A stretch of 34,074 nt of DNA from a virus. Of the stretch, positions 3,140 to 33,106 are shown one piece after another. Positions within the stretch are counted from its first letter, which is position 1; each line of letters starts with the position of its first letter. The notes under the pieces were generated by a model that made no database searches, was not told the origin of the DNA, and was given only the letters and a program-made list of their open reading frames with translations. Position numbers and translations under genes: made by a program. The DNA lies in IMG/VR virus record IMGVR_UViG_3300001533_000851, positions 1 through 34,074 of that record; one strand, given 5' to 3'.

Positions 3140-4565
3140 GGATGTAAAGGCAATAGTTAAGAGAAAGTTCCAGTATGATCTAACACCTATGCAGTGTGAA
3201 ATAGTCAGGACTATTGCATTTAGAGAGCATCAGAAGATTTCTATATCAGCAATGACTAGGTATGGCAAAAGTTTCTGTATTGCAATAGGTATAGCCCTTA
3301 TAATTGATTTTGGGATACCTGTCAAGATTGCATTCATAGGTCCAAAGCAAGAACAAGCAGGGATATTACGGGAATATATGGCAGACCTGATGCTAAGGTG
3401 TGATGAGCTTCTTGCAAAGGCAGACATTGATACAATCGGAACTGATAAGATCAGGAAAGAAACAAGCAAGAAAAGGATGACTTTCAAGACTGGAGCTGAA
3501 TATCGTGTATTCTCGGCAGAGGGTGAAGCAGACAGGCTTATGGGATTCGGAGCTGGAATTGTACTCCTAGACGAAAGAGTGCTTATACCTGAAAAGGCAG
3601 AAGCAAAGATAAGCAGGATGTTGGGAGATAATCCTAAGAACTATATGCTGATTGAATCATATAATCCATGGGACAGGGCAAGCAAAGCATTCCAGCATAC
3701 ACTTGACCCAGACTTCTATGTTATACATATTGATTGGCGTATTGCAGTTAAGGAAGGCAGGACTACACAGGAGTTTGTAGATATGCAGAGGAAGGAACTC
3801 ACACCTTTGGAGTTTGAGGTATTGTATGAGAGTAGATTCCCAGAAGAATCAGAGGATAGTCTGCACAGCCTGAAAAACATAATGAATGCTGAAAATCAGA
3901 AGTTTAAATTTATGGATGAGCTTATAGAGTTGGATAATAAACTTAAAGAAGCACATAAATATACCGAATCAGAAATCAACCAGATCAAGAAAGATATTAA
4001 TAAATATAAGGTTATTATTGCTTGTGATCCTGCCGATAAGGGACTGGATGAAACAGTCATAATGTTTGGCATTGAGAAGGATAATCACTATCAGGTTATA
4101 GATATATATTCAGAGCCAAAGTCTGAAAGTATGCAGATAGTTGGGTATATAATCAACAGAACTAAGGATCATGCAAACAAGCCATATAAGGTTGAGATCA
4201 AGATTGATAAGGTAGGCATAGGTGTAGGTGCATTCAGTCGGCTCAAGGAAATAGTATATACAGAGAATAACTGGAGCAATGTCAAGGTCAAGGGGTGCGG
4301 TGCAGGTGAACAGGCAATCAAGAAAGACCATTACATTAATCAGAAGGCTGAGAATAACTTTCGTCTCAGAGATTTATTTATCGATAATATGATGGGCATA
4401 CCTGAACATCATAAGCTTAGGCAACAGCTTATATCTATGAAATGGGAGCTGACAAGCACAGGCAAGAAGAAGGTTATTGATCCTGAAGATAAGAGCCCAG
4501 ACTATTCAGATTGTTTAGTTATTATGGTGTGGCGTGATAAGCAGGAGTTATTGTTTGAATTTTAG
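3099..4565 (+). CDS. terL: Terminase large subunit
   Basis: At 488 residues this is a full-length packaging motor. The ATPase domain has a Walker A-like TRYGKS at residues 53-58 and a Walker B IVLLDE at 154-159, followed by a coupling motif I-E-S-Y-N-P at 185-190. After a helical linker (about 255-303) the RNase H-like nuclease domain shows A-C-D310-P, then K-I-D370-K and the terminal P-D468-Y-S-D471, giving the acidic metal-binding set. The protein translocates DNA into the procapsid and cuts it to length. It starts inside the small-subunit gene and ends just before a late promoter. Confidence 0.95.
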   Translation: MTSLDQRKKEILNRDVKAIVKRKFQYDLTPMQCEIVRTIAFREHQKISISAMTRYGKSFCIAIGIALIIDFGIPVKIAFIGPKQEQAGILREYMADLMLRCDELLAKADIDTIGTDKIRKETSKKRMTFKTGAEYRVFSAEGEADRLMGFGAGIVLLDERVLIPEKAEAKISRMLGDNPKNYMLIESYNPWDRASKAFQHTLDPDFYVIHIDWRIAVKEGRTTQEFVDMQRKELTPLEFEVLYESRFPEESEDSLHSLKNIMNAENQKFKFMDELIELDNKLKEAHKYTESEINQIKKDINKYKVIIACDPADKGLDETVIMFGIEKDNHYQVIDIYSEPKSESMQIVGYIINRTKDHANKPYKVEIKIDKVGIGVGAFSRLKEIVYTENNWSNVKVKGCGAGEQAIKKDHYINQKAENNFRLRDLFIDNMMGIPEHHKLRQQLISMKWELTSTGKKKVIDPEDKSPDYSDCLVIMVWRDKQELLFEF

Positions 4566-4571
4566 TATATA

Positions 4572-4590
4572 TTGCAATAAAGTTTAAATA
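4572..4590 (+). promoter_or_regulatory. Late-class promoter, copy 1
   Basis: The 19-mer TTGCAATAAAGTTTAAATA sits between terL and the portal gene. TTTAAATA is a plausible archaeal TATA box with upstream AATAAAG as BRE-like sequence. The portal ATG is 35 bases downstream and has no Shine-Dalgarno before it, so the transcript should be leaderless or nearly so. The same 19-mer occurs unchanged at 7137-7155 and with one substitution at 20554-20572. Confidence 0.7.
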
Positions 4591-4624
4591 GTGGTTTTAT
4601 TTAATAATAAGTATTTTTATAGTC

Positions 4625-7110: not shown

Positions 7111-7136
7111 TATTTTTAAATCAATTTAAATATTGA

Positions 7137-7155
7137 TTGCAATAAAGTTTAAATA
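7137..7155 (+). promoter_or_regulatory. Late-class promoter, copy 2
   Basis: This is identical over 19 bases to the promoter before the portal gene. The TATA-like TTTAAATA ends 23 bases before ATG 7179, almost exactly the archaeal TATA-to-start distance, and there is no ribosome site. A leaderless transcript for the protease/capsid operon is therefore expected. Confidence 0.7.
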
Positions 7156-7178
7156 CCAGTTTTATATATAAATTAATT

Positions 7179-17000: not shown

Positions 17001-17642
17001 GTTTCTGTTGATGGGTATATTAATGAATCAAGAATTTGCACAGTAGCCAATCCTTGCCTTGATAATGTTACAAATATAACTAATGATTTATATTGGAGAT
17101 TGGACTCAAGTAACTCACCATCAACAAATAACTGGACACACGAAGGAAACTTTAATGTTGATGATGGTGAATTTACTGCATATAAAAATTCAGGAACAAA
17201 TCGCATTAATGTTACATCTGGACTTAATTCAGTTACATTAGGAACAACATATAATACATTTGCTGGTTTATATTTCCATAACTCTGCTGGATTAATGCTT
17301 GGCAGAGAATCTTTGGGTGATCTTTTTATAAATGAATATGGTGGTGTAGGATTAGGTAATTATATTATACCTAATGACATTGATTTATTTATATATAAAA
17401 ATACACCTACAATAATGATGTATGACATTGTTACAGGTGGCAATGTTTCTATACATTTAGATAATCAAACACTTAAGTTTATTAATGGGACTAATGGAAA
17501 TATGATGACTATTAATAGATCTGGTGATATAACTGTAAATAGTGTGGTACTTTCAAATGGTGCAAGTATAACTGATAATTCCACTTGTTTAATATTAAAA
17601 AGTCCAGATGGAAGTTCGGAGAGTGCAATATGCAACCAATAA
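14100..17642 (+). CDS. Giant secreted fibre/adhesin-like protein
   Basis: The 1180-residue protein begins with a signal peptide (M-N-K-L-N then a hydrophobic helix, likely cleavage after V-F-A at 21). The rest is low-charge, Asn/Thr/Ser/Gly-rich beta sequence with very many N-x-S/T sequons. Three G-D-T-M-T-G repeats (about residues 115, 190 and 343), a known phage tail-fibre repeat core, punctuate the first third. Residues ~73-106 (N-L-N-W...C-P-A...T-C) recur in the next protein. An export signal on a fibre is unusual for phages and suggests host-surface display or glycosylation before assembly. It starts one base behind the previous stop and overlaps the next gene by 13 bases. Confidence 0.6.
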   Translation: MNKLNILMIVMLISMIGLVFAIPFTPQGDIDMKWTYDIINVPNLNITNIYANYTYSEFINATGINVNGTITADEFQGNLNWTYLQNYPDSCPAGYAVTQINDTLTCSDYWVDVTGDTMTGDLVIQAHLNVTENVTTNNWFRGLFNWSIFPDVSRFYLTFTGSDLIFNESKLNDTINTTVNLHEHWVNESGDTMTGDLFFNFSGINDIEIVNNVETMYSGINTTGINIKSSGNDLANFGKIGGTNAVSLLINAEYNTYNSGIGLFNGTSQVLVNWLSYYGLDLYNPITGVIAIRLDATDGHINATGNIYDNNNRVCTAINGECENLTTNASNILNEYWVNESGDTMTGNLIINAELYVEDNILISDKKETNYRDVYFPVSGFINYFNNTDNQSVVIGTADLSAISPNSQLPFIKLIKQDGGMTPFFYITDTDTKTNIIEISDDIIMGDLGQYGNNLIPSTGGSIVVIGETNGTHGFADFQYEPIRGLTLGNQLSENTSNFNMVGGSVSGGNLRIATNNNYAVVDISQENNLISIGDNSYEIPLNYYSKTEGVILDVQPSNKTFYVKQNTTLGLSDYLSPHIRFKQDNYDDISFNNIERFVVRSKENNGAVLNMLFYDSNNVSEGNKVIFHKSEGNEKANDTLNIGSMEWKAYNGSEYISSAKMDVKVSGTIDGDTVPTDIIYSVREKDGNMDTLLTLANEYSVAVGNYQNSIRPEHTLELFNYGDSSNKFVVRRNDGGYTDSGYLMIDNPARNQARIQFPTNSTAGGPYGNGMLLIGGGYGNLSSPTFVEFMRINAVDVVPANVQPQFGFNTRNNPSEFFHLKASNQPANIRLEVDSSNQFTSGLRFFESTTDRGGVLFNSSNDDIVISSYQGSTYGVIPSLTFNGDEIIIGDRSIGSVGYKLIFDANMTQSSPIIVFRNNLVEEGYIQYFMDSRMLIKMNNENHSIDLESDNININGKITNISGNLSVSVDGYINESRICTVANPCLDNVTNITNDLYWRLDSSNSPSTNNWTHEGNFNVDDGEFTAYKNSGTNRINVTSGLNSVTLGTTYNTFAGLYFHNSAGLMLGRESLGDLFINEYGGVGLGNYIIPNDIDLFIYKNTPTIMMYDIVTGGNVSIHLDNQTLKFINGTNGNMMTINRSGDITVNSVVLSNGASITDNSTCLILKSPDGSSESAICNQ

Positions 17643-27904: not shown

Positions 27905-27915
27905 TCACCACTATA

Positions 27916-27974
27916 TATAGTATCTGCTTGGGTTTGTTTTGGAAACCTCTTTTCAAGCTCTGGCAGATACTATA
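27916..27974 (+). other. Strong stem-loop between late and early genes
   Basis: A perfect 12 bp stem (27916-27927 with 27963-27974, TATAGTATCTGC against its complement) encloses 35 bases that form further helices: GGTTT 27931-27935 with AAACC 27943-27947, and TTG 27928-27930 with CAA 27954-27956. The nested order suggests a folded RNA rather than a chance palindrome. It lies 11 bases behind the late operon and 10 before an early promoter. It may be a terminator, a small RNA, or a DNA site such as for packaging or integration. Confidence 0.5.
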
Positions 27975-27983
27975 ATATTATAA

Positions 27984-28000
27984 ATAGAAACTTTTATATA
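27984..28000 (+). promoter_or_regulatory. Early-class promoter, copy 1
   Basis: ATAGAAACTTTTATATA combines a BRE-like TAGAAAC and a TATA box TTTATATA. It fits the other three early-class promoters except for a C where they have G. The next ATG is 28045 with its own GAGGTGAG site, so the mRNA has a leader of perhaps 20 bases. Confidence 0.6.
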
Positions 28001-28044
28001 TTAGTTATACATACTATTGTGGTATTGAGATGAGGTGAGCTAAT

Positions 28045-28242
28045 ATGAAACGAATCGAAAAGATAGAAATAAAGAAAAGTTCTGGCATATATTACTACAC
28101 TGGCGAGTTAAGGCAAGTTGATGATGACTGGGTAGAAATTACAACAACAAGAGGCGAAACCCTAAGATTCAGGTCAGAACAGATAGATGGAAGGCAATTA
28201 ATCGAAATGCGAGGAGATGATGAGAATGGTAGAAAAAGATAA
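28045..28242 (+). CDS. Small beta-barrel protein (LSm/SH3-like candidate)
   Basis: This 65-residue protein has regular strands: Y-Y-Y-T-G-E-L, W-V-E-I-T-T, E-T-L-R-F-R, and a final loop plus strand. The sequence G-E-L-R-Q-V-D-D-D-W-V-E-I-T-T resembles the central strands of LSm/Hfq-like or other small SH3-type barrels, which bind RNA or act as adaptors. It is the first gene behind the early promoter and overlaps the DNA-binding regulator gene by 17 bases. Fold assignment is a reading of strand pattern only. Confidence 0.4.
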   Translation: MKRIEKIEIKKSSGIYYYTGELRQVDDDWVEITTTRGETLRFRSEQIDGRQLIEMRGDDENGRKR

Positions 28243-28657
28243 GAAAATAACAACCATAAATGTATATGTAGAAATTTTAAATTATTGTAAGAAAAATAAA
28301 TTGAGCCTAAGCGAGTGGGTTAATACTGAGTTCAAAAATAAATACATAAGTGTAAGGGCTAAGGTTGCAGAGCTTGAGAAGCTGGAGCATAGGAAGGAAG
28401 AACTGATCAAAGAGATCAAAGAGATTAAGGACAGAAACGAAACAATGAAGATCAGTATAACAACTAGGGAGATGAGATTCCTAGAAACTATTGGTTCAAG
28501 ATTGGAAAAGGGTGCAGAATGGAAATATATCAAAAATTGTTACAATAATGAGCATAACAGGGATCTTTCTATTGAAGAATTGCAATTTTTGTATAAATCA
28601 CACAAAAATAAAATCAAAAATAGATTAGAAATGGCTCTCAAAAAACATAATAAATAA
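28226..28657 (+). CDS. Ribbon-helix-helix / coiled-coil DNA-binding regulator
   Basis: I prefer ATG 28226, 9 bases behind GAGGAG; ATG 28217 and 28220 are in frame as alternatives. The N-terminus reads as a ribbon-helix-helix: strand K-I-T-T-I-N-V-Y-V, helix E-I-L-N-Y-C-K-K-N, turn L-S-L-S, then E-W-V-N-T-E-F. A Lys/Glu coiled coil follows (about residues 45-75), then a mostly helical C-terminal half. RHH dimers bind tandem or palindromic operators, as in CopG, ParG and Omega. The gene lies only 32 bases before the ordered TATATAA array, its probable target. Repression, copy-number control or partition are all possible. Confidence 0.6.
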   Translation: MVEKDKKITTINVYVEILNYCKKNKLSLSEWVNTEFKNKYISVRAKVAELEKLEHRKEELIKEIKEIKDRNETMKISITTREMRFLETIGSRLEKGAEWKYIKNCYNNEHNRDLSIEELQFLYKSHKNKIKNRLEMALKKHNK

Positions 28658-28797
28658 TTTCACAACTTAAAATCACTTAATTAGGTGGTATTCTTATATA
28701 ACTTGATACTACACACTCTATATAAGATTTAAGTATTCTTATATAAGATGACACTACACACTCTATATAAGATTTAGGTATTCTTATATAAGATGAC

Positions 28798-28918
28798 ACT
28801 ACACAGATTATATAAGATTAGAGGATTCTTATATAAGATTTATCTTAATTTCTGAATCATTTATAAACAAAAACATGAGTTATATAAGATTTGATGATTC
28901 TTATATAATCTGTGTAGT
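28798..28918. repeat. Perfect 19 bp inverted repeat inside the array
   Basis: ACTACACAGATTATATAAG (28798-28816) is exactly complementary to 28900-28918, with 83 bp between. The interval carries one more pair of TATATAA sites on each side and an A-rich centre (about 28861-28876). The arms could hold a looped DNA complex or mark an origin with two-sided symmetry. Confidence 0.7.
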
Positions 28919-28970
28919 AGAAAGATAAGTAAAGCTAAAATTTTGTTATATATATATTATATAACTATAA

Positions 28971-28995
28971 GAAAGAAAGAAAGAAAGAAAGAAAG
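28971..28995. repeat. GAAA tetranucleotide microsatellite
   Basis: Six tandem GAAA units plus one base run from 28971 to 28995, within the iteron-like region. It gives a purine-only strand next to AT-rich sequence. Such tracts change length easily, so copy number may vary among relatives; a strand-opening or spacer role in the array is possible. Confidence 0.7.
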
Positions 28996-29051
28996 ACTAC
29001 ACATATTATATAACATTCAGCATTTCTTATATAACTTGACATATTTATGGC

Positions 29052-29087
29052 AAAAGTATATACTTTTGATAGATATTATATATATCT
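29052..29087. other. Pair of palindromes before an early promoter
   Basis: AAAAGTATATACTTTT (29052-29067) is a perfect 16 bp palindrome. Directly after it, AGATAT 29071-29076 and ATATCT 29082-29087 form a second inverted repeat. Both lie 20-50 bp upstream of the early promoter at 29107 and could be repressor operators. They differ from the TATATAA pair array, so another protein may bind them. Confidence 0.5.
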
Positions 29088-29106
29088 AATATTATGAATA
29101 CACCAT

Positions 29107-29128
29107 AAAATAGAAAGTTTTATATATA
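29107..29128 (+). promoter_or_regulatory. Early-class promoter, copy 2
   Basis: AAAATAGAAAGTTTTATATA plus TA: a BRE-like GAAAG directly before the TATA box TTTATATA. With the following bases to 29162 it is almost identical (52 of 56) to the promoter at 33036-33091. It drives the operon starting at ATG 29183. Confidence 0.7.
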
Positions 29129-29182
29129 GGTTATGCTTCCTAATATTATACATAAATAATATAAACAAGCGAAGTATACAAA

Positions 29183-30389: not shown

Positions 30390-30471
30390 ATGGGCTGAGT
30401 TGCATAGATTGATAATAAGAGCTAACAAGCTCCAACATAAATATATCAAAGATAATATGCTGAATAAATAA
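30361..30471 (+). CDS. 36-residue helical mini-protein
   Basis: The ATG at 30361 lies four bases behind a GGTGAT site inside the previous gene. The 36-residue product is a single amphipathic basic helix (E-W-A-E-L-H-R-L-I-I-R-A-N-K-L). It ends just before the third early promoter. It is kept because of the ribosome site and regular helix; it may still be a chance frame. Confidence 0.4.
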   Translation: MQNMGLTQYEWAELHRLIIRANKLQHKYIKDNMLNK

Positions 30472-30472
30472 T

Positions 30473-30494
30473 AAAATAGAAAGATATATATATA
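30473..30494 (+). promoter_or_regulatory. Early-class promoter, copy 3
   Basis: AAAATAGAAAG is followed by ATATATATATATG instead of TTTTATATATA, so the BRE half is identical to the other copies while the TATA part is a repeated TA tract. It serves the operon that starts at ATG 30542, which also has a GGTGGTGAT ribosome site. Confidence 0.55.
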
Positions 30495-30541
30495 TGTTAG
30501 TATATCTAAATAATAATAAACAATGTGGTGGTGATACAAAA

Positions 30542-32491: not shown

Positions 32492-33017
32492 AGAAGCAGG
32501 AAAACCAAAAGATGTAAAACGAGAAGAACCAGTCAGGGAAATAACTGTCCTAAGTAATGGTGATATTCAGATGTATGAAAAGTTTGAAGCTACAACTATC
32601 TGGGATTATAGAGAGTTTTTGAGTTATTTCCGAGAATTTAATCTCGAAAAAGAACATAATGAGAAGGCAATTTCTGACGAAACAATTAATAAACATAAGA
32701 GTATGCTAGAAAACTTAAATGCCCAAATTCAATATATTAAACCATTTATTGATCAAGCTGAAAAGATAACAGCGGGTATATACGAAGAAAATAAGTATCA
32801 GGGTGAGTTAGCTAGGGTTAAGGATGAATTAAAAAATCCAATATCTGATATAGGTGCAGGTGCTTGGCTGATCAATGTTTTGGAAAATTTGAACAAACCA
32901 GAGAATGAAGATAAGAAAAAAAGGTTGTGGTCAGATTTAACTCCTGAAGAAACTCAGAAGCTAGCGAAGATAAAACTCAGGCAGATGCAGACTAATAGGA
33001 ATAAGAAGAGTAAATAA
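32481..33017 (+). CDS. Coiled-coil early protein, unknown
   Basis: A GGCGGTGA site precedes ATG 32481. The 178-residue protein has an N-terminal part with a beta hairpin (I-T-V-L-S-N-G-D-I-Q-M-Y), a long coiled coil (about residues 60-115) and a Trp-containing helical C-terminus ending in a basic tail. It is the last gene of its operon. No catalytic or metal site is visible. Confidence 0.45.
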   Translation: MMNKEAGKPKDVKREEPVREITVLSNGDIQMYEKFEATTIWDYREFLSYFREFNLEKEHNEKAISDETINKHKSMLENLNAQIQYIKPFIDQAEKITAGIYEENKYQGELARVKDELKNPISDIGAGAWLINVLENLNKPENEDKKKRLWSDLTPEETQKLAKIKLRQMQTNRNKKSK

Positions 33018-33035
33018 ATATTATGCTAACATAAT

Positions 33036-33057
33036 AAAATAGAAAGTTTTATATATA
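33036..33057 (+). promoter_or_regulatory. Early-class promoter, copy 4
   Basis: AAAATAGAAAGTTTTATATA plus TA, identical to copy 2, and the identity with it continues with four changes to 33091. A GGTGGTGAG ribosome site follows before ATG 33107. It drives the nuclease-containing operon at the end of the window. Confidence 0.7.
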
Positions 33058-33106
33058 TGTTATGATTCATAATATTATATATAAATAATATGGTGGTGAG
33101 AAAACA

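Follow-up and report, generated by a model that had tools for sequence, protein, structure and literature searches.

The DNA analysed here, called the window throughout, is the whole of IMG/VR record IMGVR_UViG_3300001533_000851 (34,074 bases). It codes for a terminase, a portal protein with a minor-head domain, an HK97-type major capsid protein (MCP) and tail genes, recognized by PHROG match or synteny, and judged by these genes the record is that of a tailed virus. The large genes all lie on the + strand, GC skew is uniformly positive over the whole window, and no Rfam families or tRNAs were found in it. The protein encoded at 1629-2750 is a DNA methyltransferase (PHROG 498) with a fused ParB-like domain at its N terminus; several relatives have homologues of it. 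The locus studied here comprises the late-early junction, a gene for a small beta-barrel protein, a gene for an RHH-like protein, and a gene-free stretch (28658-29182) that holds a repeat array and, past it, an early promoter (Table 1).

Table 1. Features of the locus, and ORB-like elements in the records of relatives
Feature	Position	Strand	Remarks
Late-early junction gap	27905-28044		140 bp; early promoter (TATA ~27990), no array
Small beta-barrel protein gene	28045-28242	+	65 aa; overlaps RHH-like gene
RHH-like protein gene	28217-28657	+	146 aa; directly upstream of array; proposed binder
Array of 12 YTATATAA sites	28694-29034		Ten TTATATAA and two CTATATAA; five 21-bp pairs (modules 1 to 5) plus single TTATATAA sites at 28694 and 28957
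Module 1	28709-28746	+	CTACACA, NN, CTATATAA (28718), 13 bp, TTATATAA (28739)
Module 2	28754-28791	+	CTACACA, NN, CTATATAA (28763), 13 bp, TTATATAA (28784); tandem copy of module 1
Module 3	28799-28836	+	CTACACA, NN, TTATATAA (28808), 13 bp, TTATATAA (28829)
Module 4	28880-28917	-	TTATATAA (28880), 13 bp, TTATATAA (28901), outer box on right, TGTGTAG (28911-28917)
Module 5	28997-29034	+	CTACACA, NN, TTATATAA (29006), 13 bp, TTATATAA (29027)
Archaeal-type early promoter element	29107-29126	+	ATAGAAAGTTTTATATATAG; upstream of gene 29183, ~75 bp past last site
ORB-like, L090 (G002)	~2440-2571
ORB-like, L103 (G020)	~4170-4309
ORB-like, L120	17270
ORB-like, L132	~3800
ORB-like, L138	8149
ORB-like, L139	10290
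ORB-like, L140	7823

Relatives were found through the MCP, which retrieved 80 viral contigs with best segments 51-71% identical; their records were analysed whole or in part. In reference genomes, the MCP matches fell in four bins, namely the MAGs of a Woesearchaeota member, a Nanoarchaeota member, another archaeon and a WOR-3 member. Because the MCP relatives are binned mainly in Woesearchaeota and Nanoarchaeota MAGs, DPANN archaea are probably the hosts, with the caveat that virus contigs can be mis-binned. Direct searches with the terminase and the RHH-like protein against viral contigs found no kin, nor did the DNA-repair exonuclease against genome contigs, and a nucleotide search of phage records gave no match. 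A tyrosine integrase was present in one of the ten records checked (G020:C1:37342-37827, E = 8.6e-34) and missing from the other nine, so most of these viruses may not integrate by way of such an enzyme. One relative (L063/G019) has a record of likewise 34,074 bases; its MCP is 65% identical to that of the window, and the equal length is apparently a coincidence.

A recount of the array bore out the ten TTATATAA and two CTATATAA sites described in the earlier note, together with the five pairs whose members start exactly 21 bp apart and the placement of the first three pairs in 45-bp direct repeats. Elsewhere in the 34,074-bp window, TTATATAA occurs three times (14059, 14943 and 15374), always unpaired, and there are no further 21-bp pairs. 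As a null model, we made 20,000 dinucleotide-preserving shuffles of 28658-29040; these held 0.32 sites on average and 4 at most, and none of them had 12 sites or as many as three pairs at one spacing. When 12 sites were placed at random, five pairs at any single spacing arose in 0.08% of placements. Since pairs 1 to 3 lie inside the 45-bp direct repeats and are not independent, the tandem copies were also collapsed, and four pairs at one spacing still arose in 0.16% of random placements. The array is explained neither by chance nor by tandem duplication.

The modules share a detailed anatomy, with the consensus CTACACA NN YTATATAA gATT N5 aTTC TTATATAA over the five pairs. The earlier note had reported a CTACACA box with most modules; in pairs 1, 2, 3 and 5 the box precedes the left core by 9 bp, and in pair 4 it is found on the opposite side and inverted, a switch that would be expected of a symmetric complex able to use the box at either of its ends. 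The same note had only TTC kept between the two sites, which understates the conservation: the spacer reads gATT.....aTTC, and only its middle five bases are free. With these conserved ends each pair is a quasi-palindrome, TTATATAAGAtT.....aTTCTTATATAA, while the core TTATATAA is an 8-bp palindrome in its own right. Nine of the 12 window matches to the 12-bp palindrome TCTTATATAAGA, at up to two mismatches, fall in the array. Two turns of B-DNA span 21 bp, which puts both cores of a pair on the same side of the DNA. Pairs 3, 4 and 5 have diverged in sequence, and a degenerate sixth module may exist at 28673/28694 (TCACTTAA/TTATATAA).

The protein encoded directly upstream looks RHH-like, a label that we draw from its sequence pattern and helix layout: strand-like residues 9-16 (ITTINVYV) precede a predicted helix (18-26), a predicted long helix (31-78) and C-terminal helices. 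The predicted monomer contains no strand (pTM 0.43, low confidence at the N terminus), and the fold-search matches of this model include no RHH fold. Pfam and NCBIfam scans of the 146-aa protein gave no RHH profile match; PF01402 had no match in the window or 11 relatives and PF07878 none in the window at E <= 5, and the sole contact with an RHH profile was that of L092 to RHH_5 (E = 0.19). PDB sequence and fold searches with the protein returned nothing convincing. Its nearest homologue is the L132 protein (BLASTP E = 3e-11, 29% identity, full length), and an alignment search with these two proteins brought up no further kin. The 65-aa neighbor is a predicted small barrel, with Hfq/SH3-like folds as its nearest, weak matches, and is conserved in eight relatives beside the RHH-like gene; alignments of this protein served to locate the equivalent cassettes. 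A viral Sm-like protein, if it is one, would be unusual.

Comparison with relatives shows that the repeats are private to each type of protein. The exact module pattern had no match in viral contigs, and TATATAA N14 TATATAA pairs stand at the RHH gene of no relative; ten other records instead have an RHH-like gene adjoining a non-coding stretch with a repeat motif of its own. Beside the RHH gene of L132, TACGTA N15 TACGTA occurs twice, 21 bp start to start, with no TACGTA pairs elsewhere in that 26.9-kb record; the two modules also have an outer box, GGCGCC, which switches sides from one to the other. A separate and more distant group of RHH-like proteins, which we call type A, is found in G005, G011, G030, L126 and L130. 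There the gap that precedes the gene for the 65-aa protein contains palindromic GTTG/CAAC modules, 35 bp long except for one of 39 bp; by reading, each 35-bp module has two TTANNTAA-like cores at a distance of 11 bp, or one helical turn. Yet other RHH-like proteins, in L128, L133, G003, G002, G020 and G047, go with other repeats. In sequence, repeat spelling changes with RHH type, so that motif and protein co-vary. The loss of the 21-bp pairing in relatives that keep the neighboring genes, named in the earlier note as evidence against a function, is literally what G005, G011 and G030 present, but a different paired motif is found there, which fits changed specificity better than absence of function.

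Modules near-identical to those of type A also stand directly upstream of TTTAAATA late promoters, at the portal gene or the gene that follows it (o7179), in L013, L029, L037, L040 and L054, a position that ties the motif to the control of transcription. With their right half, these modules overlap the late-promoter element GCTCAAC, which also occurs alone. Most of the GTTG module counted at L054:3140 falls inside coding sequence, and its left half is probably due to chance. Inverted or direct repeats exceeded those of shuffles (p <= 0.04) in 11 of the 13 RHH-adjacent gaps; G002 was borderline (p = 0.055), and the gap of G005 failed the test, which is an ungapped one. The control gaps of G019 and G021 also scored as repeat-rich; the former precedes an RHH-like gene and the latter a winged-helix-like gene. 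In G021 (L104 reverse complement, ~17274-17343), a tRNA-like sequence in a non-coding junction was seen by eye.

Several known systems resemble this arrangement in part. SvtR, AvtR and F55 are archaeal viral RHH regulators with repeated or inverted operators; an SvtR site lies ~80 nt upstream of the BRE/TATA at gp30, and the SvtR operator was proposed to seed spreading along the DNA from this distal site toward the BRE/TATA (PMC5569661). SvtR (SIRV1) and AvtR (AFV6) are thus alike to the proposed system as RHH-type regulators with inverted-repeat operators, whereas their hosts are crenarchaea, the window protein has no detected sequence relationship to them, and the review text consulted mentions no fixed 21-bp double-core modules for them (PMC5569661). 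F55 (SSV1) is an RHH protein that binds repeated sites both at early promoters and at the promoter of its own gene, but its tandem ATAGATAG repeats overlap the BRE and TSS, whereas the window has palindromic core pairs away from the promoter. In NikR, two RHH domains are joined by a C-terminal tetramer that bridges the operator GTATGA-N16-TCATAC (PMC7055735), the half-sites of which start 22 bp, or about two turns, from one another; it differs in having a single metal-regulated operator as opposed to five modules, and no relationship was detected in the C-terminal domain. The partition systems ParR/parC and omega/parS likewise combine an RHH protein with an iteron array and also repress promoters. 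The literature searched yielded no experimental papers on how tailed viruses of DPANN archaea control their genes.

Taken together, the five clustered modules of the array are probably operators that serve the RHH-like protein of the gene directly upstream and act on the downstream early promoter; array and gene most likely form a custom control switch, a regulator with its matching docking sites. For its working we infer the following steps. One RHH-like dimer would sit on each 8-bp core TTATATAA, and the helical C-terminal region would bridge two dimers on the same DNA face, two turns apart, as modelled on NikR with its half-sites at about that distance. Each module would consist of two cores flanked on one side or both by an outer CTACAC box, loading would be cooperative between neighboring modules, and the array, once filled, would repress or activate the early promoter that drives gene 29183 onwards. 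The putative binding to one face by the neighboring RHH-like protein, as suggested earlier, gains good support from L132, where a different palindrome keeps the same 21 bp, and from the 35-bp modules that go with more distant versions of the protein. Consistent with an operator are the repeated and inverted sites near a regulator gene and upstream of viral promoters, of the SvtR/AvtR/F55 type. Against it stand the missing RHH profile match, the predicted monomer with its lack of a strand, the 21-bp pairing that is not universal in the family, the window's other promoters, which carry no copies of the module, the two repeat-rich control gaps, and the position of the array, which in the window lies downstream of the RHH-like gene and in relatives over that gene's own promoter. 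No terminator-like site was found in the array, and a sigma-70 promoter scan is uninformative for an archaeal virus.

Because the gene/array unit sits in the late-early junction across the wider virus family, it may also act on replication, and the array could even be part of a viral replication origin, in which the repeat-bound RHH-like protein opens or silences an AT-rich origin recognized by host Orc1/Cdc6. Archaeal origins are laid out as inverted ORBs around an AT-rich core (PMC5333045, PMC3936714). The junction gap of relatives (~265-360 bp) contains palindromic modules and ORB-like elements; in G002, G045 (L132), L120, L138, L139 and L140, the elements TTTCCATAGGAA...GGGG share the junction with the RHH arrays, and in G002 and G020 an ORB-like inverted pair with outward G-runs flanks an AT-rich core (79% and 73% AT) holding palindromic repeats, as in archaeal origins. 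The motif scores 27-35 over a background of ~10, scores that are not independent given that the same sites built the matrix. These junction elements are candidate viral origins recognized by host Orc1/Cdc6, and no MCM helicase was found in the window or in nine relatives, as would suit viruses that rely on the host replisome. The window itself differs from archaeal origins in having no ORB-like site above background anywhere (best score 10.6). The GC-skew check advised earlier showed no switch at the array and is hardly informative where all genes run one way. An origin at the array is thus possible from the relatives' layout, yet in our estimate unlikely.

The other readings fare worse. The locus could be a centromere-like partition site to which an RHH protein of the ParR, ParG or omega kind binds, since plasmid partition of types Ib and II typically has iteron clusters next to an RHH-like gene (PMC5016525), but an AAA_31 search for ParA-type ATPases found none in the window or nine relatives, the near-identical modules of relatives also stand at late promoters, and a single record in ten has an integrase. 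We rejected the partition site for lack of a ParA ATPase and regard it as very improbable. Sequestration of host TBP by decoy sites, or a row of TATA boxes, was suggested by the likeness of TTATATAA to archaeal TATA boxes. None of the sites is preceded by AATAGAAA, the BRE-like element before TATA at the window's early promoters, on which ground a row of promoters was rejected; the paired core of L132, TACGTA at the same spacing, is not TATA-like, and outer boxes and spacing would be left unexplained, so that a TBP decoy has a very slender chance of being correct. Neutral expansion of AT-rich repeats by tandem duplication and slippage would account for modules 1 to 3 and is in keeping with a GAAA microsatellite at ~28971-28996, whereas modules 4 and 5 lie outside the tandem run with diverged spacers, the outer box of module 4 is on the opposite flank, the conditional probability of the spacing is ~0.001, and paired motifs recur in relatives. 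Pure tandem duplication was rejected on modules 4 and 5 and the inverted outer box, and we give neutral expansion as a whole hardly any credence.

The operator reading supplies a named protein and a defined DNA target with a testable geometry. The relatives form a natural series of joint changes in protein and target, from which the rules of recognition can be read off and then tested by swaps, and the ORB-like elements in their junction make viral recruitment or control of host replication testable. A wider picture is conceivable, though doubtful: DPANN tailed viruses might use an interchangeable regulator with a private repeat array at an ORB-based origin, each virus having an RHH-like protein of its own and matching repeats inside or next to the AT-rich core of that origin. 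The virus would thereby set the time at which host Orc1/Cdc6 fires its origin and would switch both early and late transcription, and specificities would diverge among co-infecting relatives much as in an immunity group.

Further regulatory sequence was noted around the array and along the window. Between the array and the early promoter lies a perfect 16-bp palindrome, AAAAGTATATACTTTT (29052-29067), perhaps the site of another regulator. Early promoters of similar type are found at ~27987, 30480 and 33042, and a ~75-bp early-promoter cassette (AATAGAAA-TTTTATATATA-GTTATG and a common downstream stretch) occurs three times (29088-29163, 30453-30524 and 33017-33091; 77-88% identical). Late promoters of the window at 4575-4600 and 7135-7165 have TTGCAATAAAGTTTAAATA in common, and those of relatives upstream of the portal gene and the next gene have (GCTCAAC)nnTAAAAAnnTTTAAATA in common.
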